Assembly: GCF_001586255.1 (NCBI RefSeq)
Contig: NZ_CP014544.1
Span: 1,457,501-1,521,500 of the forward strand
DNA from: Zhongshania aliphaticivorans
GTDB taxonomy: Bacteria > Pseudomonadota > Gammaproteobacteria > Pseudomonadales > Spongiibacteraceae
Reading direction: 5' to 3'
DNA length: 64,000 nucleotides
Shown here: positions 382-12,749 of the stretch, piece after piece
Position numbering within the stretch: the first letter of the stretch is position 1
Layout: every line of letters starts with the position of its first letter
Notes under the pieces: generated by a model
The model's database searches: none
What the model was told of the DNA's origin: nothing
What the model saw: only the letters and a program-made list of their open reading frames with translations
Program-made: the position numbers and the translations under genes

Positions 382-1329
382 ATGGAACAGCTCACCGATC
401 TAAAGGCAATACTGCATTCCAAGCGGGCGAATATTTATTACCTTGAAAAATGCCGAGTAATGCAAAAAGACGGTCGGGTGCTGTATTTAACCGAAGCTAA
501 AAACGAAAACCAGTATTGGAATATCCCCATCGCCAATACTACCTGCCTGTTGCTGGGTACAGGCACCTCGCTCACTCAGGCAGCTATGCGCATGTTAGCG
601 CAGGCAGGCGTAATGGTAGGGTTTTGTGGCGGTGGCGGCACACCGCTACTAATGGCCACGGAAATTGAATGGCTAAGCCCGCAAAGCGAATATCGCCCCA
701 CCGAATATATTCAAGGTTGGATGCAATTCTGGTTTGATGACGCCAAGCGTTTGCTGGTCGCTCGTCAATTGCAACGAGCCAGAATCGAATTTTTGCAGGG
801 TGTTTGGGCCAGAGACAAAGACCTAAAATCAGAAGGTTTTAATGCCAACGACGCAGACATCGCGCAGGCCCTAGAAATTTTCCTTAGCAAAACCGAAAAA
901 GCCGCCAAAGTCAGCGAACTACTACAAACCGAAGCACAACTCACCAAACAGCTCTACAAAATAGCCGCCAATCGCAGTCAGTATGGCGACTTCGTGCGTG
1001 AGCGCGAAGCCGTAGACACCGCCAACGCCTTTCTCAATCACGGCAACTATCTTGCTTACGGACTAGCGGCCACCACACTCTGGGTGCTCGGTATTCCCCA
1101 CGGCTTCGCCGTTATGCACGGCAAAACTCGTCGGGGCGCCTTGGTGTTCGATATCGCCGACTTAATAAAAGACGCCATTATTCTGCCGTGGGCCTTTATC
1201 TGCGCCAAAGAAAAAGCCACCGAACAAGAATTTCGCCAACAATGCCTGCAAGCCTTTACCCAGCACAAGGCATTGGACTTTATGTTTGAACAAGTGAAGA
1301 GTGCGGCTTTGAAAGGGGCTAATCAGTGA
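382..1329 (+). CDS. cas1: Cas1, type I-F CRISPR adaptation integrase
   Basis: This is the metal-dependent integrase that, with the Cas2 part of Cas2-3, inserts new spacers at the leader end of the array. The protein is 315 residues, the usual size for Cas1f. ATG 382 is preferred over an upstream TTG at 364 because AGGAG at 372-376 is correctly spaced for it. The C-terminal catalytic region is intact: the PHGFAVMHG segment carries His near residue 240, and FDIADLIKDA carries the acidic metal ligand near 257. The gene stops at 1327-1329 in a TGATGAAC context that looks like a former translational-coupling point with the next cas gene. Here an antisense vapC ends only 8 bp downstream. Adaptation function therefore looks intact. 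Confidence 0.95.
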   Translation: MEQLTDLKAILHSKRANIYYLEKCRVMQKDGRVLYLTEAKNENQYWNIPIANTTCLLLGTGTSLTQAAMRMLAQAGVMVGFCGGGGTPLLMATEIEWLSPQSEYRPTEYIQGWMQFWFDDAKRLLVARQLQRARIEFLQGVWARDKDLKSEGFNANDADIAQALEIFLSKTEKAAKVSELLQTEAQLTKQLYKIAANRSQYGDFVREREAVDTANAFLNHGNYLAYGLAATTLWVLGIPHGFAVMHGKTRRGALVFDIADLIKDAIILPWAFICAKEKATEQEFRQQCLQAFTQHKALDFMFEQVKSAALKGANQ

Positions 1330-1336
1330 TGAACAC

Positions 1337-1705
1337 TCAATCAGCAATAAAACAGGTGTTTAGCGTTTGCGCGGCGGCCTTTAAACGGCGGTCGCGAGTC
1401 CAAATTAATGTTGATGGGGTCAGTAATGTCGCGGTAATCAGGTGTAAGTCGACAAAGCCAATGCCTTTGCCAGAGAGGTCATTTTCGGCTAAGCAGTATA
1501 AAGCCTCACTGTGGCTGGCTTCGGTGATGGATGGCAAGCCTTGCCAAAGTGCAATGAGTTGGCCGCGCTTATGAAGATTGCCGCAGGCCAGTTCGCCAAT
1601 AATCATTGGGTGCATACAAACTTGACCCAGCATAAGCAAATCGGCGAGCACTTTATCGCCTTGGCGAAGGTGATCAACCCAAACCGAGGTATCAACCAGA
1701 ACCAT
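1337..1705 (-). CDS. vapC: VapC-like PIN-domain ribonuclease toxin
   Basis: This encodes a 122-residue PIN-domain protein of the VapC toxin family, ribonucleases that typically cleave tRNA or rRNA when the antitoxin is lost. All four PIN acidic residues are visible: D5 in LVDTSVWVDH, E38 in IIGELACG, D86 in GFVDLHLI and D105 in WTRDRRL, so the toxin should be catalytically competent. It lies 2 bp downstream of vapB on the same strand, the normal antitoxin-toxin order. The gene is antisense to the cas operon and converges on cas1, whose stop codon is 8 bp away. The target RNA cannot be inferred from sequence. Confidence 0.9.
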   Translation of the reverse strand: MVLVDTSVWVDHLRQGDKVLADLLMLGQVCMHPMIIGELACGNLHKRGQLIALWQGLPSITEASHSEALYCLAENDLSGKGIGFVDLHLITATLLTPSTLIWTRDRRLKAAAQTLNTCFIAD

Positions 1706-1707
1706 GC

Positions 1708-1905
1708 TTATATTTTAGCTGACTGGCGGCGAGGAGCAGCCTGCAAGTCAGGCTCAGAACCGCCTAAAAAGGCCAAGCGCCGAGCACTTTCTCGCTCAAT
1801 CAAGGCTTTAAGACCTTCTTTAAGCAAGGCTGTTTTCTCATGTACACCCGTTAATTCAACGGCTTTGGCATACAAGGCATCGTCAATATTGAGTGTGGTA
1901 CGCAT
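1708..1905 (-). CDS. vapB: VapB-like antitoxin
   Basis: This 65-residue protein has an N-terminal ribbon-helix-helix-type segment (MRTTLNIDDALYAKAVELTG) typical of VapB antitoxins that dimerise on DNA. The charged C-terminal tail would wrap the VapC active site. A strong ribosome binding site (TAAGGAG on the minus strand) lies about 8 bases before the ATG at 1905. VapB proteins usually repress their own promoter, and that promoter must lie in 1906-1986, the same short stretch that precedes cas2-3. The antitoxin could therefore influence cas2-3 expression. That last point is inference. Confidence 0.88.
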   Translation of the reverse strand: MRTTLNIDDALYAKAVELTGVHEKTALLKEGLKALIERESARRLAFLGGSEPDLQAAPRRQSAKI

Positions 1906-1986
1906 GGCATTACTCCTTAGGCGCCAGAAAAAGCATCATTGTATGCCAAAATTGATGCAGGCACTAGATGGCGGGGGTGTCCGCTA
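1906..1986. promoter_or_regulatory. Shared divergent control region of vapBC and cas2-3
   Basis: These 81 bp are all the DNA between the divergent starts of vapB (minus) and cas2-3 (plus). On the minus strand a TACAAT hexamer (plus-strand 1938-1943) could be the vapB -10 box, with no good -35. The GGGGG at 1973-1977 is the likely ribosome binding site for cas2-3. No clear plus-strand promoter is visible, so cas2-3 may depend on read-through from cas1, which would run antisense across vapBC. Confidence 0.5.
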
Positions 1987-4900
1987 ATGATGGTCACCTT
2001 TGTAAGCCAATGCGATAAAAAGGCCATCGCCCGCAGCAGACGGGTTTTAGATGCCTTTGCCGACCGTATTGGCGATAACACATGGCAAACGGTGATTACC
2101 CAAGAGGGTTTGCTGGCGGTTAAAAAGTTATTGAGAAAAACGGCAACAAAGAATACGGCCGTGAGTTGCCATTGGATTCGGAGTAGGGCAAGGAGTGAGC
2201 TGATTTGGGTGGTGGGGAATAGGAATAAATTTAACTATGAAGGAGGAGTGCCGGTAAATACTACGCTTAATGATAGCTATAGCGCTGGCGATGAAAATCG
2301 CTGGATTTACGGCCATGCCATTCAGATTGTTGCGGTATTAGCTGCACTGCTGCACGACATTGGGAAAGCGACAGTTGGCTTTCAAAATAAACTGTTTAGT
2401 CCTAGTGATAAATTCAAAGGTGACCCATACCGCCATGAATGGATTTCACTGCGATTATTTCAAGCCATGATTTATGGGTGTAATACGGATGAGCAATGGT
2501 TAAGCCGGGTGATGGATTTTGATAGTTATATTCAAGGTAACCCTGATTGGCTTAAACACCTTCCAAATGACGATGAAGGTAACCCCCGTCGTTTAGATAA
2601 GCTGCCGCCATTGGCGCAATTGATCGCTTGGCTAGTTGTTACCCATCATCGATTACCAACCTACAAACCCACTCGGTACGCTCGTTCACAGCGATATGCA
2701 GAGCAACTAAATGACCGTGAATGGGGCAAAGAAATGGATATGCAGGAGTTCTTTGCCAGTTTAGCGCCCTATGAAAAATGGGTAAAAAACGAGAAAGCCG
2801 ATACAGATAAAGATTTTTGGCGCTTAAAAGAAGTCGTCATGACCAGTAAGAGTTGGCAGCGGGAGTTGAAGCGTTGGGCCAGAAAAGCCCGCGACCATGC
2901 GCCGCTTATGGCGTTGGCCCAAAACACTATTTCTGACCCGCTACTTATGCATCTTTCCCGGCTCTGCTTGATGCTGGCGGATCATAATTATTCGCGTTTG
3001 TCTGATCCCAATGACAAAAAGCGAGTAAAGGGAGACGCCCAATTCGCCAATAAACTTGCGGCCAACACCAATCAAGAAGGTGGAATCAAACAGCCACTAG
3101 ATGAACATTTACTTGGTGTAGCAAGTTTTGCCAAAAAAGTGGCTTTGGATATACCACGCTTATCCCGGCGCTTGCCCGTATTGCCTAGTAAACATAAGCC
3201 TTTTCTGGCGCAAACCCGAAAAGAAAATTACCTCTGGCAAAACGGGGCGTTCGCACTTGCTACAAAGCTACAGGAATCTGCCCAGCGCCAAGGTTTTTTC
3301 GGGGTCAATATGGCGTCTACTGGGCGCGGTAAAACGCTAGCTAATGCCCGCATTATGTATGCTCTTGCCAGCTCGGAAACGGGCGCTCGTTTTACCATTG
3401 CCCTAGGCTTACGTGTGCTTACTTTGCAAACCGGAAGGGCGCTAAGAGAGCGTCTTTCACTGGGCGAAGAAAATTTGGCAATATTGGTTGGTGGTGCTGC
3501 TAATCGAAAATTGTTTGAGCTGGCGCAAGAGGAGCAAGACTTCACCCAGAGTGGCAGTGAATCTATCGAACCTTTGCTGGGTATGGGCGAAGAGGTAGAT
3601 GGCAGCTTGTTACCTGAAGAGTTTCAAACTCTGCTGGAAGACAGCAAAACCCAAAAGTTGCTGGCGGCACCAGTAGTAAGTTGTACTGTTGACCACATCA
3701 TGCAAGCTTCTGAGTGCAGTCGGGGTGGGCGTTACATAGCCCCGGTACTGCGTCTGCTTACCAGTGATCTGGTTTTGGATGAACCAGACGATTTTGATCA
3801 GTCCGATTTGCCTGCACTTGCACGATTAGTGCATATGGCTGGGTTATACGGGAGTAAGGTTCTACTTTCTTCGGCGACGTTAACGCCAGATATGTTGGCG
3901 GGTTTGTATCAAGCCTATTCCGCCGGGCGTAAAGTCTGGAATAGCCATATGGGTGTTCCGTCTGCGCAGCCTATACCCTGTGCGTGGTTTGATGAATATC
4001 ATCAGCAAGGCACAGCTTGTGCAGATTTTGACGTATTTACATCGGCGCACCAGCAGTTTGTAAGCAAACGTGAAGCTAAATTGCTGGCAGAGCCCGTGCG
4101 GCGAAAGGCAGAAATTTTGCCTGTTGAACTGCCGCCAGCAAAAGAAGGTGAGCGCCTTAAAATACATATGCCAGCTTTGGCAAAGCTAATGCTGGATGCC
4201 GCAATCGAACTTCATGGTAGGCACGCAGAAGCGTGTCCCGTCACAAACAAGCAGGTCAGTATCGGCCTTATTCGCATGGCCAATGTAGAGCCAATTATTC
4301 ACCTTGTGCGTAACATGTACGCGCAAATTGAATTGCCGAGCGATGTGCATATTCACCTTTGCTGCTACCACGCCAAGCAGTTATTGATATTGCGGGATGG
4401 CTTGGAACAAAAGCTAGACCGAATATTGAGCCGCTCGGAGCCTAAATCACTATTTACTCACACGGAAGTGCAGACGGCACTGAACCGCAGTAGCGCCGGA
4501 CAACATATCTTTATCGTTGTTGCCAGCCCAGTGGCAGAAGTGGGCCGCGACCACGATTATGATTGGGCAATTGTGGAGCCTTCCTCCATGCGCTCGCTAA
4601 TTCAACTCGCAGGGCGGGTGTGGCGGCACCGCCCGGATAAAATAGCAACTAGCCCGAACCTTTTCGTAATGGATAAGAATATTCATGGCTTAAAAGGGGA
4701 TGCAGTTTGTTTCACCCGCCCAGGTTTTGAACAAGAGCCACGTTTTCAACTTGTCAGTCACAGCTGTAGTGAGCTGATTACCCAAGCACAGTTAAATCGC
4801 ATCGATTCCATTGCCCGTATCGTCCATGAGGAGGAGCTTCAGCCAGAAAAACGCCTAGCTGATTTAGAGCATGCGGTAATGAATGGCTTGTTGAATAACA

Positions 4901-5316
4901 CAGACAATTTCGTAAGTGCTTTTTGGCGGTCAGGTAATGGCAATCACACATCCGCCCATCTCCAAAAGATTAGCCCATTTCGAGATCGCGATGTGCCGGA
5001 GGATGACTATGTTTGCCTGCCTGTCCCAGAGGACGAACACGGCTACAAATTCACTTTTGCCGAGGCCGCCTGGAAGGACTTGTATAACTGTCCCTATCAA
5101 ACAAGCAAGATACGTTTTGCTGAGTTCTCGCCCTGTAATCCCCAAGTCAGCCCTTGGTTAACAGTAGGGCTAGATGATGTAGTCCAGGAGCTAGCCGATA
5201 AGTTAGGTGAACACAATCTCACCAAAGTTGCTCGCCAGTACGCCACCGTGCGTTTGGCGCAGAGAGATGGAGTCTGGCTATTTCACCCGTGGTTGGGGTT
5301 TTGGAAGGCCGAATAG
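1987..5316 (+). CDS. cas2-3: Cas2-3 fusion: adaptation subunit plus interference nuclease-helicase
   Basis: This is the type I-F signature fusion of Cas2 with the Cas3 HD nuclease/superfamily 2 helicase. It partners Cas1 in spacer acquisition and degrades target DNA recruited by the Csy complex. I place the start at ATG 1987 (1109 residues) because the Cas2 fold begins at MMVTFVSQCDKK; the reading frame is open for 16 more codons upstream with no conserved sequence. Visible motifs are HDIGK near residue 123, Walker A GRGKT near 446-450, DEPD near 598, SSAT near 628 and QLAGRVWRH near 873. All look intact. It is separated from cas1 by an antisense vapBC module, whereas the two genes are normally adjacent. 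Confidence 0.95.
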   Translation: MMVTFVSQCDKKAIARSRRVLDAFADRIGDNTWQTVITQEGLLAVKKLLRKTATKNTAVSCHWIRSRARSELIWVVGNRNKFNYEGGVPVNTTLNDSYSAGDENRWIYGHAIQIVAVLAALLHDIGKATVGFQNKLFSPSDKFKGDPYRHEWISLRLFQAMIYGCNTDEQWLSRVMDFDSYIQGNPDWLKHLPNDDEGNPRRLDKLPPLAQLIAWLVVTHHRLPTYKPTRYARSQRYAEQLNDREWGKEMDMQEFFASLAPYEKWVKNEKADTDKDFWRLKEVVMTSKSWQRELKRWARKARDHAPLMALAQNTISDPLLMHLSRLCLMLADHNYSRLSDPNDKKRVKGDAQFANKLAANTNQEGGIKQPLDEHLLGVASFAKKVALDIPRLSRRLPVLPSKHKPFLAQTRKENYLWQNGAFALATKLQESAQRQGFFGVNMASTGRGKTLANARIMYALASSETGARFTIALGLRVLTLQTGRALRERLSLGEENLAILVGGAANRKLFELAQEEQDFTQSGSESIEPLLGMGEEVDGSLLPEEFQTLLEDSKTQKLLAAPVVSCTVDHIMQASECSRGGRYIAPVLRLLTSDLVLDEPDDFDQSDLPALARLVHMAGLYGSKVLLSSATLTPDMLAGLYQAYSAGRKVWNSHMGVPSAQPIPCAWFDEYHQQGTACADFDVFTSAHQQFVSKREAKLLAEPVRRKAEILPVELPPAKEGERLKIHMPALAKLMLDAAIELHGRHAEACPVTNKQVSIGLIRMANVEPIIHLVRNMYAQIELPSDVHIHLCCYHAKQLLILRDGLEQKLDRILSRSEPKSLFTHTEVQTALNRSSAGQHIFIVVASPVAEVGRDHDYDWAIVEPSSMRSLIQLAGRVWRHRPDKIATSPNLFVMDKNIHGLKGDAVCFTRPGFEQEPRFQLVSHSCSELITQAQLNRIDSIARIVHEEELQPEKRLADLEHAVMNGLLNNTDNFVSAFWRSGNGNHTSAHLQKISPFRDRDVPEDDYVCLPVPEDEHGYKFTFAEAAWKDLYNCPYQTSKIRFAEFSPCNPQVSPWLTVGLDDVVQELADKLGEHNLTKVARQYATVRLAQRDGVWLFHPWLGFWKAE

Positions 5317-5338: not shown

Positions 5339-7638
<2,300 letters not shown>

Positions 7639-7640
7639 CC

Positions 7641-8645
7641 ATGACATTAACAACAGCAACCGTATTGGCATTTGAGCGTAATTTGGATATATCTGACGCT
7701 TTGTTTTCGCAGGTTGATAGTGCAGTAAGTGCAGCACAATTTCGGCCCGTAAAAATTCAAACCAAATCTGTGCGCGGCACTATCAGTAATCGACTTAAAT
7801 CGGCTATCGCCAATGACCCAGTAAAGCTGGATGCAGAAATAGAAAAGCCCAATTTGCAGACCGTGGATGTGGCTTCGCTCGATCATGATTGCGACACTTT
7901 GGTGGTGAAGTGGAGTTGCAAAGTGTTGCCTTTTACTGGCAAACCAAGCGTTTGTAACGATCAAGCGTATCAGGCTAAGTTGCAGGGAGTGGTGCAAGGC
8001 TATTTACAGGAGTCTGGTGTGGCCGAGCTGTCTCGTCGTTACGCCACTAATATTGCCAACTCCCGCTGGTTATGGCGCAACCGTTTGGGAGCCGAATCAA
8101 TCCGATTAACCGTGTCGCTTAGCCCTGATGGTGCGGGTACTATTGCCGTGATTGAAGATGCCAAACAGTTATCGCTTACCGATTTTAGCCAAAACAATAA
8201 TGCAGTTAGTGAACTTGCGACTCGCATAGAGCAGGGCTTGAAAGGTGATGCTTTTGTTATTTTGTATATCAAAGCCGAAGCTAAGGTGGGTTACGGGCAG
8301 GAAGTTTATCCTTCGCAGGAGCTAATCTTGGATACAGGCAAAGAGAAGAGCAAAGTGCTTTATCAAAAAAATGATATTGCGGGCATGCATTCGCAAAAAA
8401 TTAGCAACGCTATCCGCACAATCGATAACTGGTATCCCGATGCTCAATTTCCTGTTGCCGCAGAACCCTATGGTGCAGTAACAACGCTTGGTACTGCATT
8501 CCGTCAGCCTAAACAAAAGCAGGATTTTTATAGTCTGTTCGACAATTGGGTGCTTAAGGATTCCGTGCCAAGTGTGGAGCAGCAGCACTACGTAATGGCG
8601 GTATTGATTCGGGGTGGCGTGTTTGGAGCCAGTGGCAAGGAGTAG
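7641..8645 (+). CDS. cas7f: Cas7f (Csy3), crRNA backbone subunit
   Basis: This encodes the 334-residue repeating backbone subunit that coats the spacer part of the crRNA in six copies. ATG 7641 is chosen over an overlapping GTG at 7635 because AAGGAGAG at 7628-7634 is correctly spaced for it. The opening MTLTTATVLAFERNL and the VKWSCKVLPFTGKPSVCND segment match Csy3. The gene is followed after 2 bp by cas6f, completing a tightly packed csy1-csy2-csy3-cas6f operon. Confidence 0.95.
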   Translation: MTLTTATVLAFERNLDISDALFSQVDSAVSAAQFRPVKIQTKSVRGTISNRLKSAIANDPVKLDAEIEKPNLQTVDVASLDHDCDTLVVKWSCKVLPFTGKPSVCNDQAYQAKLQGVVQGYLQESGVAELSRRYATNIANSRWLWRNRLGAESIRLTVSLSPDGAGTIAVIEDAKQLSLTDFSQNNNAVSELATRIEQGLKGDAFVILYIKAEAKVGYGQEVYPSQELILDTGKEKSKVLYQKNDIAGMHSQKISNAIRTIDNWYPDAQFPVAAEPYGAVTTLGTAFRQPKQKQDFYSLFDNWVLKDSVPSVEQQHYVMAVLIRGGVFGASGKE

Positions 8646-8647
8646 GC

Positions 8648-9214
8648 ATGGATCATTATTTTGAAATAAAAGCCATTCCTGATCCGGAGTTGCTTCAATC
8701 AGCCGTTGTTGGTCAGCTCATGCAGGTGTTACATGGGCTATTACCGGCATTTTGTGGCCGAATAGGTTTGAGTTTTCCTGGTTATGGGCAAGCGCGAACC
8801 CTAGGGGGGATTTTGCGGCTCCATGGTACTTCCAAAGATTTGGATCAACTTGCATTTCGGCTGAAAGCTTTGCCGATTATCTCAAGCTATGCCTTGGTTA
8901 CGCCAATTGCCTTAGTGCCGAGTAGGTTAAAAGGTTACGCTAGATTTCAGCGCCTGCATGTAAAAGGAGAGAGTGATCGTCGGCGTATGGAGGCCCGACA
9001 CAAAGCTCGCGGTACGTGGACACCTGAATTGGCGCACGCTATTGCAGAGAAATACCAGCAAGCCATTGTTTGCCCCCATGTGATATTAAGAAGCCAAAGC
9101 ACCGGGCAGCCCAGAGTTCCGCTATTTGTTGAAAAGCTTAGTGTAACTGGGTTGGTTGTTGGAGAATTTAGCGCATATGGCCTCTCCAAAACCGCCACAG
9201 TGCCGTGGTTTTAG
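8648..9214 (+). CDS. cas6f: Cas6f (Csy4), pre-crRNA endoribonuclease
   Basis: This is a 188-residue Cas6f that cleaves at the 3' base of the repeat hairpin. The catalytic general base His29 is present (MQVLHG, residues 25-30) at exactly the position known for Pseudomonas Csy4. Arg102 and an Arg-rich helix (about 111-121) for RNA binding are also visible. Its substrate, a repeat with stem CTGCC/GGCAG and loop GCACA, is present in the downstream array. AAGGAG at about 8637 precedes ATG 8648. Just beyond its stop lie the remains of a toxin-antitoxin pair. Confidence 0.95.
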   Translation: MDHYFEIKAIPDPELLQSAVVGQLMQVLHGLLPAFCGRIGLSFPGYGQARTLGGILRLHGTSKDLDQLAFRLKALPIISSYALVTPIALVPSRLKGYARFQRLHVKGESDRRRMEARHKARGTWTPELAHAIAEKYQQAIVCPHVILRSQSTGQPRVPLFVEKLSVTGLVVGEFSAYGLSKTATVPWF

Positions 9215-9499: not shown

Positions 9500-9754
9500 T
9501 AGTTTTGAGATGCTATTTAAAATAATCCAGTAAAATCGGCGAGCCTGCACTAGCGCTCGCAACTGATGATGGAAGTCCCCGAGGTTGTTCGGCGATCAGG
9601 AATTGCCAAAGCCGCGGTAGCGCTAGGCACTACGCAATCCAGATTGAATGATGCATTAAAGGGGGAAATAGAAAAGTGCAGTGTAGACCGCCTAGCGCAG
9701 ATGCTAGCGGCAGTTTGCTACACCGTTAAGCTAAATATTTGTTACGCAACCTGA
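9500..9754 (+). pseudogene. Decayed HigA-like XRE-family antitoxin; C-terminal HTH fragment still open
   Basis: An open frame from ATG 9566 to 9754 encodes 62 residues carrying an XRE helix-turn-helix: AAVALGTTQSRLNDALKGEIEKCSVDRLAQML. This is the C-terminal half of the HigA-type antitoxins that accompany Gp49-like toxins. Upstream, the same frame contains antitoxin-like text (RSQLMMEV) but is broken by TAG at 9551-9553, and earlier pieces appear in another frame. The full-length antitoxin is therefore lost, but a short HTH protein could still be made. It lies about 150 bp from the first CRISPR repeat. Confidence 0.65.
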
Positions 9755-9901: not shown

Positions 9902-12749
9902 GTTCACTGCCGCACAGGCAGCTTAGAAAATATTTAAATTTCTCAGTTGCACCAGACACTGGTTCACTGCCGCACAGGCAGCTTAGAAATTCATCCCCTC
10001 CAAAGCCCAAGCCTCTAAGCAGTTCACTGCCGCACAGGCAGCTTAGAAAATCTCTTTGCACAATGCTGGCACCAGATCAGCGTTCACTGCCGCACAGGCA
10101 GCTTAGAAAAGTACCTAAGCGCCCAGGATAGGCACCTAGTCGTTCACTGCCGCACAGGCAGCTTAGAAAACCGGACGCAACAGCTTACCCGTTTAGAATG
10201 CGTTCACTGCCGCACAGGCAGCTTAGAAATATAAGTGCGCGCTTTGTTGCTGTGCTTGTTGGTTCACTGCCGCACAGGCAGCTTAGAAAACCTCGCACCG
10301 AATCGAGATGACCTTACCATCGTTCACTGCCGCACAGGCAGCTTAGAAAGAGAACAACAACAACGCTGCCGACCCGCAAGCGTTCACTGCCGCACAGGCA
10401 GCTTAGAAATAGTCGAAGCAGTACGGCTACTCGGTACGCTAGTTCACTGCCGCACAGGCAGCTTAGAAAAAGTGCGACCTCGCCGCATTGCGCCCAAGCC
10501 CGTTCACTGCCGCACAGGCAGCTTAGAAAACGCGCAAAGCAGCCAGCATCTTGCGAAAGCCGTTCACTGCCGCACAGGCAGCTTAGAAAACCCTTGCCAA
10601 GGAAGTGACCACGGCGGCTACGTTCACTGCCGCACAGGCAGCTTAGAAAAGCTGCCACCAATACACCAGCCGCTATTTTAAGTTCACTGCCGCACAGGCA
10701 GCTTAGAAAATAAAACGCTGGTGCATCCGAATAAAGAAAAGGTTCACTGCCGCACAGGCAGCTTAGAAATTAACGCCAGGCAGAGTTTTTACATTCTCCT
10801 TGTTCACTGCCGCACAGGCAGCTTAGAAAATTGGCAAGCGACAAGCGGAAACGCTGGTAAGGTTCACTGCCGCACAGGCAGCTTAGAAATACGCGTCAAG
10901 TGGGAAGGCATTTATTTTGGAGTTCACTGCCGCACAGGCAGCTTAGAAACTCGGCAGATCCGGTAGCAGTTATAAGGCCAGGTTCACTGCCGCACAGGCA
11001 GCTTAGAAATATACGAACTCGCCCGCGACGAAGACGGCTATGTTCACTGCCGCACAGGCAGCTTAGAAAAAAGCCTGCAAGCCTATCACCTCCGCCCGAT
11101 AGTTCACTGCCGCACAGGCAGCTTAGAAAAAAGATATAACCGGCACCCTCGAAGACAAGCCGTTCACTGCCGCACAGGCAGCTTAGAAATTTTACTCGGT
11201 GTGATTGACTCACCACCATGCGTTCACTGCCGCACAGGCAGCTTAGAAAACACGGTAGGCGCTACTGCCGACACGCTAGCAGTTCACTGCCGCACAGGCA
11301 GCTTAGAAATGCAAAGTCTTGTGTGCCTGATCGTTTTGGCGGTTCACTGCCGCACAGGCAGCTTAGAAAGGTAAACAATACCGAGCGCCGAAACTACCAG
11401 AGTTCACTGCCGCACAGGCAGCTTAGAAATGCGCTAATTGCTGCGGGGCAAGAATTAGCGTGTTCACTGCCGCACAGGCAGCTTAGAAAGTTAGCGCTGG
11501 CCACGGCCTCAGTAATTCCCCGTTCACTGCCGCACAGGCAGCTTAGAAATTTATATCGCCGTTGTTGAAACCGTCGAATATGTTCACTGCCGCACAGGCA
11601 GCTTAGAAAATTTGCGCAATATTCCACGGCGACACCAAGGAGTTCACTGCCGCACAGGCAGCTTAGAAAAGTTTCAAAACATTGGACGCGCCCACCATAA
11701 TGTTCACTGCCGCACAGGCAGCTTAGAAAGCTGCGAGCATTACCGGATGCGTGCGTGCGCAGTTCACTGCCGCACAGGCAGCTTAGAAAAAGCACTACAC
11801 CAACATGAACGACACACTGTTGTTCACTGCCGCACAGGCAGCTTAGAAATTTGAATCGACGGTGAACGTATACGTCGATAAGTTCACTGCCGCACAGGCA
11901 GCTTAGAAAGAATGCTTGATACTGAGATTTATAATCTTAGTGTTCACTGCCGCACAGGCAGCTTAGAAAAAAGACAAGGACTTCATAACATGACAGAAAA
12001 TGTTCACTGCCGCACAGGCAGCTTAGAAAATTAGCTGCTGGATCTCGCCAGTGGTGTAGCCGTTCACTGCCGCACAGGCAGCTTAGAAAGCTTGCATCAT
12101 GCGGTTGCGCTCAGCTTCATAGTTCACTGCCGCACAGGCAGCTTAGAAAAAGAAAAGGGCATTGCTGAGATTATTACCACTGTTCACTGCCGCACAGGCA
12201 GCTTAGAAAATATTGCGCGCCCCACGAAACACCCTCGTTCAGTTCACTGCCGCACAGGCAGCTTAGAAAAAATCAAGCAGGCCGAACAATACGGCGTTGA
12301 CGTTCACTGCCGCACAGGCAGCTTAGAAAGAATGCCTCAGCCTGCGCATAAAAGACATAGAGTTCACTGCCGCACAGGCAGCTTAGAAAACCCCCTCAAC
12401 TTTCAATAAGCCTTGCTCAATGTTCACTGCCGCACAGGCAGCTTAGAAAATTGAAGTGCAGTATTTGGATGGCAACCAAGCGTTCACTGCCGCACAGGCA
12501 GCTTAGAAAGTGTGCTTGGGATTAAGAATAACCCACGAACCGTTCACTGCCGCACAGGCAGCTTAGAAAAGTTTATCGTATAAATCGTGGGATAAATTTA
12601 AGTTCACTGCCGCACAGGCAGCTTAGAAAAATAACAGAGCCAACCAGCCCACCAATGGAGGGTTCACTGCCGCACAGGCAGCTTAGAAAATTGATTCAGA
12701 GGGCCGTGGGCCGCTCCACATGTTCACTGCCGCACAGGCAGCTAAAAAT
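9902..12749 (+). CRISPR. Type I-F CRISPR array, 48 repeats and 47 spacers
   Basis: A 28-bp repeat beginning GTTCACTGCCGCACAGGCAG and ending CTTAGAAA recurs every 60 bp from 9902 to the last copy at 12722. I see no variation in the first 47 copies. The 48th (12722-12749) differs at three positions in its 3' end, the usual sign of the leader-distal terminus. Every spacer is exactly 32 bp. The repeat contains the Cas6f hairpin CTGCC-GCACA-GGCAG. Spacer origins could not be searched. Several long open frames through the array on both strands are artefacts of the 60-bp period. Confidence 0.99.

Follow-up and report, generated by a model that had tools for sequence, protein, structure and literature searches.

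The 64,000-nucleotide stretch of Zhongshania aliphaticivorans DNA analysed here (the window) comes from a 4.2-Mb genome assembled as one contig and carries a full type I-F CRISPR-Cas system in its first 12.7 kb. The system was assigned to type I-F on the presence of cas1f, cas2-3f, csy1-4 and an array with 28-nt repeats, arranged as follows.

382..1329, plus strand: cas1 (Cas1f, type I-F; TIGR03637, E 1.8e-148, 494 bits)
1337..1705, minus strand: vapC, PIN-domain toxin of 122 aa (Pfam PIN PF01850, 26.5 bits, cut-off 23.6)
1708..1905, minus strand: vapB, antitoxin of 65 aa (Pfam VapB_antitoxin PF09957, E 1.6e-15)
1933..1958, minus strand: putative vapBC operator/promoter, the inverted repeat GCATCATT...AATTGATGC overlapping the -10-like box CATACAAT, 41 nt upstream of vapB
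1969..1986, plus strand: stretch ahead of the cas2-3 start with a Shine-Dalgarno-like GGGGGTG, delimited by blastn
1987..5316, plus strand: cas2-3 (Cas3f with an N-terminal Cas2 domain; TIGR02562, 1136 bits; PF21384)
5339..6709, plus strand: csy1 (cas8f; TIGR02564)
6706..7638, plus strand: csy2 (cas5f; TIGR02565)
7635..8645, plus strand: csy3 (cas7f; TIGR02566)
8648..9214, plus strand: csy4 (cas6f; TIGR02563)
9902..12749, plus strand: CRISPR array, 48 repeats of 28 nt and 47 spacers of 32 nt (script scan)

The last of the 48 repeats carries three mismatches, and a small HTH_37 gene (9566-9754) separates csy4 from the array. Among named records, which may not include the window's own genome, the nearest Cas1 (95% protein identity) belongs to Zhongshania sp. 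BJYM1 (locus L008).

As the earlier note had proposed, the 657-nt gap between cas1 and cas2-3 holds an intact VapBC toxin-antitoxin (TA) pair on the opposite strand, the genes being placed by Pfam and TIGR matches. vapB lies upstream of vapC, 2 nt away, and vapC ends 7 nt, rather than the 8 bp given before, from the cas1 stop codon. All four acidic residues expected of a PIN toxin are there (D5, E38, D86 and D105, which we take to be the active-site positions); D5, E38 and D86 are invariant in an alignment of seven junction copies, and D105 is kept in 11 of the 12 junction copies, with a tyrosine in its place in L022. The VapC scores 22 bits against the NCBIfam VapC model NF047959, under its cut-off of 80, and found no match among PDB sequences at E 0.01; the VapB has no match in NCBIfam and shares 75-82% identity with six other junction copies. 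Neither protein matches any PADLOC family, PDC models included, and a search of the window's genome with a junction VapC profile (E 0.001) gave no second copy. Upstream of vapB, a 14-nt operator-like motif, which forms a conserved block in alignment A3, is present with zero to three mismatches in 11 of the 12 junction copies (not in L190), against 27 of 1200 shuffles. The same motif, at three mismatches or fewer, accompanies 31 of 70 VapBs from elsewhere and is thus a trait of the family, not peculiar to this junction. The operator/promoter candidate at 1933..1958 was not called in a generic sigma-70 scan.

The type I-F cas1|cas2-3 junction is a recurrent docking site for varied cargo. Analysis of 80 loci sampled by Cas1 similarity, 76 of which had a readable cas2-3 start, revealed a 4-nt ATGA overlap in 48, a gap of -1 to 16 nt in seven and an insert of 188-1387 nt in 21. 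The sequences at the two gene ends had earlier been interpreted as the halves of a former start/stop overlap; this holds for the related loci in general, but in the window it can be recognized on the cas2-3 side (ATGATGG) only. An even draw across the class (369 genomes, of which 41, the window's among them, have Cas1f at E 1e-60) allowed 38 of the 40 other loci to be fetched; the 33 with a readable junction comprise eight with inserts of more than 100 nt, 22 at -4 nt and three with gaps of 20-69 nt. All nine loci with a Cas1 55-59% identical to that of the window are at -4 nt, and the eight inserts fall among the other 24. Together, these samples give 102 distinct Cas1f loci (76 + 33 - 8 shared + the window), many of them from metagenome-assembled genomes, and 26 carry inserts of more than 100 nt (21 + 8 - 4 common to both samples + the window). 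The other 76 lack a large insert, so none is needed.

At the control junctions csy1|csy2 and csy2|csy3, gaps of more than 100 nt were found in 0/30 and 0/14 loci, respectively. They occur in 21 of 34 loci at cas2-3|csy1, where distances are overstated because the csy1 N-terminus aligned poorly. Four of these junctions were inspected (L079, L030, L059 and L069). L079, which also bears a copy of the window's VapBC type at cas1|cas2-3, has at 6597-7303 what appear by eye to be a RelE/ParE-type toxin, an antitoxin ORF and another antitoxin-like ORF, all antisense; L030 has two small ORFs without identity. These contents suggest that cas1|cas2-3 may not be the sole docking site.

The cargo of the 26 inserts was typed by ORFs and Pfam (20 cargo proteins). 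A VapBC like that of the window is found in seven, with a decayed copy, seen by eye, in L044. Other TA cargo consists of Phd-VapC (L040), MazE/AbrB-VapC (L056 and L114; decayed in L071, by eye), BrnT-BrnA (L086) and a ParE-type toxin with an ORF that has no Pfam match (L028). Single genes encode RhuM (L008), ORF6N (L051; truncated in L009), Bro-N (L037 and L076; in L010 together with ORF6N), KilA-N (L026 and L042), Fic (L036) and a WYL regulator (L111), and two inserts (L014 and L017) contain no clear protein gene. Next to the decayed antisense TA of L044 the cas2-3 match is full length; next to that of L071 cas2-3 is cut by the end of the examined stretch. In L010 (7002-8396) Bro-N and ORF6N are stacked in that order, separated by a short start resembling that of cas2-3 (MMVTI) and by what looks by eye like a remnant of KilA-N, an arrangement that suggests repeated insertion at one point.

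Eight cargo proteins from outside the window were compared with PADLOC models. Four best match PDC families (PDC-S23 for RhuM, PDC-S13 for Bro-N, PDC-S22 for KilA-N and PDC-S05 for ORF6N), one SoFic (Fic) and one a CRISPR-associated WYL model (the WYL regulator); two (a VapC and BrnT) match none. The PDC families are defence candidates that reportedly stem from a 2024 preprint by Payne et al. The underlying approach is termed 'guilt-by-embedding' in immune systems in two reports (PMC12988326, PMC11411939). Like these embedded genes, four families of which (S05, S13, S22 and S23) occupy the junction, the window's VapBC interrupts the core gene set of a multigene immune system; it differs in being an antisense TA pair and in its lack of a PADLOC match. 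Since the junction takes both embedded-defence families and the CreA-like elements described below, immunity-linked cargo seems to be enriched there. The junction is of interest as a discovery site that collects TA pairs, CreA-like elements and candidate defence genes.

Orientation differs with cargo type. Counting decayed copies and the five later VapBC loci described below, 18 of 19 TA-type inserts are antisense to cas, whereas all ten single-gene loci are sense; in three of these (L008, L026 and L051) the insert overlaps cas1 as well as the cas2-3 start. Fisher's test gives p 5e-7 by locus, a value inflated because loci share descent; by family the contrast is 4/5 versus 0/6 antisense (p 0.015). 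A simple reading is that promoterless genes ride the cas transcript and are sense, whereas TAs bring their own promoter.

The inserts without a clear protein gene contain CreA-like elements, at 6943-7326 of L014 (Amphritea atlantica DSM 18887) and 6940-7296 of L017, both at cas1|cas2-3 and antisense to cas. Each has two degenerate I-F repeats, with 3-8 mismatches when scored against the window's repeat rather than those of their own arrays, flanking a 20-21-nt pseudo-spacer. The first 11 (L014) or 10 (L017) bases of the pseudo-spacer match a nearby CC-flanked site on the guide's strand; such a seed run was reached in 2/2000 (L014) and 5/2000 (L017) shuffled inserts, and in none together with CC. 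The layout resembles that of CreTA, which one report places in the cas3-csy1 intergenic region of Acinetobacter type I-F systems (PMC10097628). From their sequences, the two elements are possibly CreTA or CreR at an address unlike that described for Acinetobacter. No toxin was recognized in either. The repeat-flanked guide and CC-PAM target seen in L014 and L017 are missing from the window's insert, and a search that allowed up to nine mismatches found degenerate CRISPR repeats neither in the insert nor in the rest of the window, the array excepted. We also considered and rejected an array-derived guide RNA for vapBC, the best of the 47 spacers having 11-12 mismatches in 32 against 1201-2100.

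Other I-F loci share the arrangement seen in the window: VapBC pairs of one lineage, here named VapBC-J, occupy 12 loci including the window, all 12 at cas1|cas2-3 and all 12 antisense to cas. In gene order, in its PIN toxin with four acidic residues, in its VapB-family antitoxin and in its upstream operator-like inverted repeat VapBC-J agrees with type II VapBC modules; it differs in having been found only at this junction in this orientation. The search for VapC-like genes covered 369 genomes of the class, 194 of the order, 398 of the phylum and 4 + 201 others (overlapping draws) as well as viral contigs, with E limits of 1e-12 to 1e-44; weak matches without a locus from the class draw were examined in part. 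Among 86 loci fetched outside the first seven, cas genes adjoin five, which are the five new junction copies, and none of the other 81 (flanks of 1.5-3 kb, at times cut by contig ends). The five came from a profile of the seven junction copies run against 201 genomes of the order of genome G269: it gave 37 VapC matches, the five best of which (183-214 bits) are at cas1|cas2-3 and antisense; the next 25 fetched (174 bits or less) have no cas genes beside them, and the seven weakest lie outside the comparison. With leave-one-out profiles, each of the first seven junction VapCs ranked first of 58. In four genomes (G091, G174, G269 and G386) whose I-F junction has another cargo or none, a VapBC of the wider family lies elsewhere. 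Viral contigs gave 13 distant VapC relatives (31-45% identical), and 296 plasmid records have a VapC match, each below 60% identity; 16 plasmids bear Cas1f. An insertion by chance, one of three possibilities that the earlier note had left standing, is unlikely given this recurrence at a single junction, with no such copy elsewhere among the loci fetched, the five later copies and the purifying selection reported below.

A VapC tree with seven junction rows has one starred junction clade. In a VapC-only tree with 28 rows added (the five new junction copies labelled 'other'), the junction clade is no longer resolved. A tree of VapB and VapC together (83 rows, nine far or long rows having been excluded beforehand) places the 12 junction copies in two neighbouring starred clades (97/94 and 99/93) and groups the 58 nearest others in a separate clade (96/93), with 13 more distant rows outside; an AU test does not reject a single clade of junction copies (p-AU 0.41). 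On these trees and searches we claim VapBC-J as a confined lineage, not as a proven single clade. In the five pairs tested, dN/dS is about 0.05-0.16 for VapC and VapB, indicating purifying selection, and both proteins therefore appear to be kept.

By analogy with CreTA, and with a probability of about 0.5, we propose that VapBC-J is a CRISPR-resident type II TA that acts as an addiction or guard module favouring retention of the I-F locus. The proposal rests on the TA anatomy, the purifying selection, the confinement to the junction and the presence of CreA-like elements at the same address, and the occurrence of close VapBC relatives at the same spot in other bacteria suggests that the pair belongs to the CRISPR locus. 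We infer toxicity, addiction and the route of spread along the following lines. VapBC-J would carry its own VapB-type operator/promoter, to judge from the motif; together with the antisense orientation of every copy, this makes expression independent of the cas operon probable. VapB, as a labile antitoxin, would restrain the RNase VapC; were the cas region deleted or replaced together with vapBC, VapB would decay first, VapC would cut RNA and growth would stop, so that retention of the I-F locus would be favoured. By the same addiction VapBC-J would hold itself in place. It may also spread to the corresponding junction of further I-F loci, or persist there, and homologous recombination through the conserved DNA on either side (the cas1 3' end and the Cas2 domain) is a possible route. 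Penalizing loss of the locus appears to be the best fit among the three readings offered earlier, and the CreA-like elements at the junction add weight to it. Against a strict guard stand the 76 of 102 loci without a large insert, the decayed copies and the missing fourth acidic residue of L022; decayed copies and empty junctions indicate that the module is dispensable.

The main rival, which explains nearly as much although we consider it somewhat unlikely, is that VapBC-J is a selfish stowaway of no benefit to CRISPR-Cas, which landed in an insert-tolerant I-F junction, was then moved between I-F loci by homologous recombination in the conserved cas DNA on its flanks and owes its maintenance to its own addiction. 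Recombination alone, without any function, could account for the confinement to the site. DNA homology between the window and L008 breaks right at the gene ends: it stops at 1316, 10 nt ahead of the cas1 stop codon, and restarts at 1969, 18 nt ahead of the cas2-3 ATG (blastn), a pattern compatible with recombination through the adjoining cas DNA. Divergence of VapBC-J is also only weakly tied to that of Cas1 (66 pairs; rho 0.24, p 0.055 for VapC and rho 0.25, p 0.042 for VapB; for VapC, rho 0.04 in the first 21 pairs). L043 and L079 have a Cas1 identity of 78% and a VapC identity of 79%, while 35 listed pairs with Cas1 at 74-78% have VapC at 53-67%. Mapped on the Cas1 tree, the presence of VapBC-J (12 loci) requires ten changes, at least eight of them forced by starred branches (shuffled mean 11.4), a scatter compatible with transfer among I-F loci or with many losses. 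AU tests on Cas1 reject shared descent neither for L043, L079 and L189 (p-AU 0.22) nor for L022 and L108 (p-AU 0.215), so movement between loci is not proven. Against a stowaway stands the company that it keeps: CreA-like elements and embedded-defence families occupy the same junction.

A rather improbable alternative is a transcription-coupled sentinel, close to the antisense sensing suggested before, in which antisense cas transcription damps vapBC and a phage or anti-CRISPR that shuts off cas expression or Cascade tips the VapB:VapC balance towards arrest. VapBC modules are usually autoregulated, which weighs against such a coupling. The antisense geometry allows it, and the orientation contrast between TA-type and single-gene inserts speaks in its favour, but that contrast could merely reflect promoters brought by TAs and the need of promoterless genes for a sense position. 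CreTA and CrePA illustrate the principle with RNA antitoxins (PMC12737573), whereas the window's insert is devoid of the degenerate CRISPR repeat sought. Least probable is an accessory antiphage system in which VapC is an abortive-infection toxin that has only its genomic address in common with CRISPR-Cas; the PADLOC matches of the other cargo proteins argue for it, and the lack of any for the window's VapB and VapC argues against it. A bolder version of the addiction reading would make VapBC-J a private I-F protein TA, docking only at cas1|cas2-3 in antisense as the protein counterpart of CreTA, with VapC silenced by cas transcription or by the presence of the locus, and arrest following deletion, phage shut-off or anti-CRISPR action. 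We regard this version as doubtful, less probable than the stowaway but more so than the sentinel.

CRISPR-Cas loci are costly and can be lost, and their persistence is an open question. The CRISPR-regulated modules CreTA and CrePA have been named as guards (PMC12737573). If true, the restriction of a protein TA lineage to a single junction in one CRISPR subtype would be a second answer. CreTA is likewise a TA inside an I-F cas cluster and is described as making the locus addictive; its toxin is an RNA repressed by Cascade through a crRNA-like guide (PMC10097628), whereas VapBC-J is a protein pair without a CRISPR-repeat element and lies at cas1|cas2-3. Each component is of a known kind, and the junction-confined VapBC lineage appears to be new: in the literature searched (titles and abstract openings), neither VapBC nor a recurrent insert at the I-F cas1|cas2-3 junction is reported, although the preprint by Payne et al. 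may cover part of this.

Two further ideas about the window and L008 were rejected. A derivation of the right edge of the window's insert from the tail of the L008 RhuM gene gained no support from local alignment (139 of 300 shuffles aligned equally well), and an exchange between the two loci cannot be called recent, the DNA of 1-1316 being just 78% identical despite the 95% identity of Cas1. The DNA match between the window and L008 spans cas1 and the Cas2 domain (1987-2264 of the window, L008 from 7681) and ends at the Cas3 part, as if adaptation and interference modules had been exchanged at the Cas2-Cas3 border. In several other loci the first cas2-3 match likewise ends near residue 80-160.
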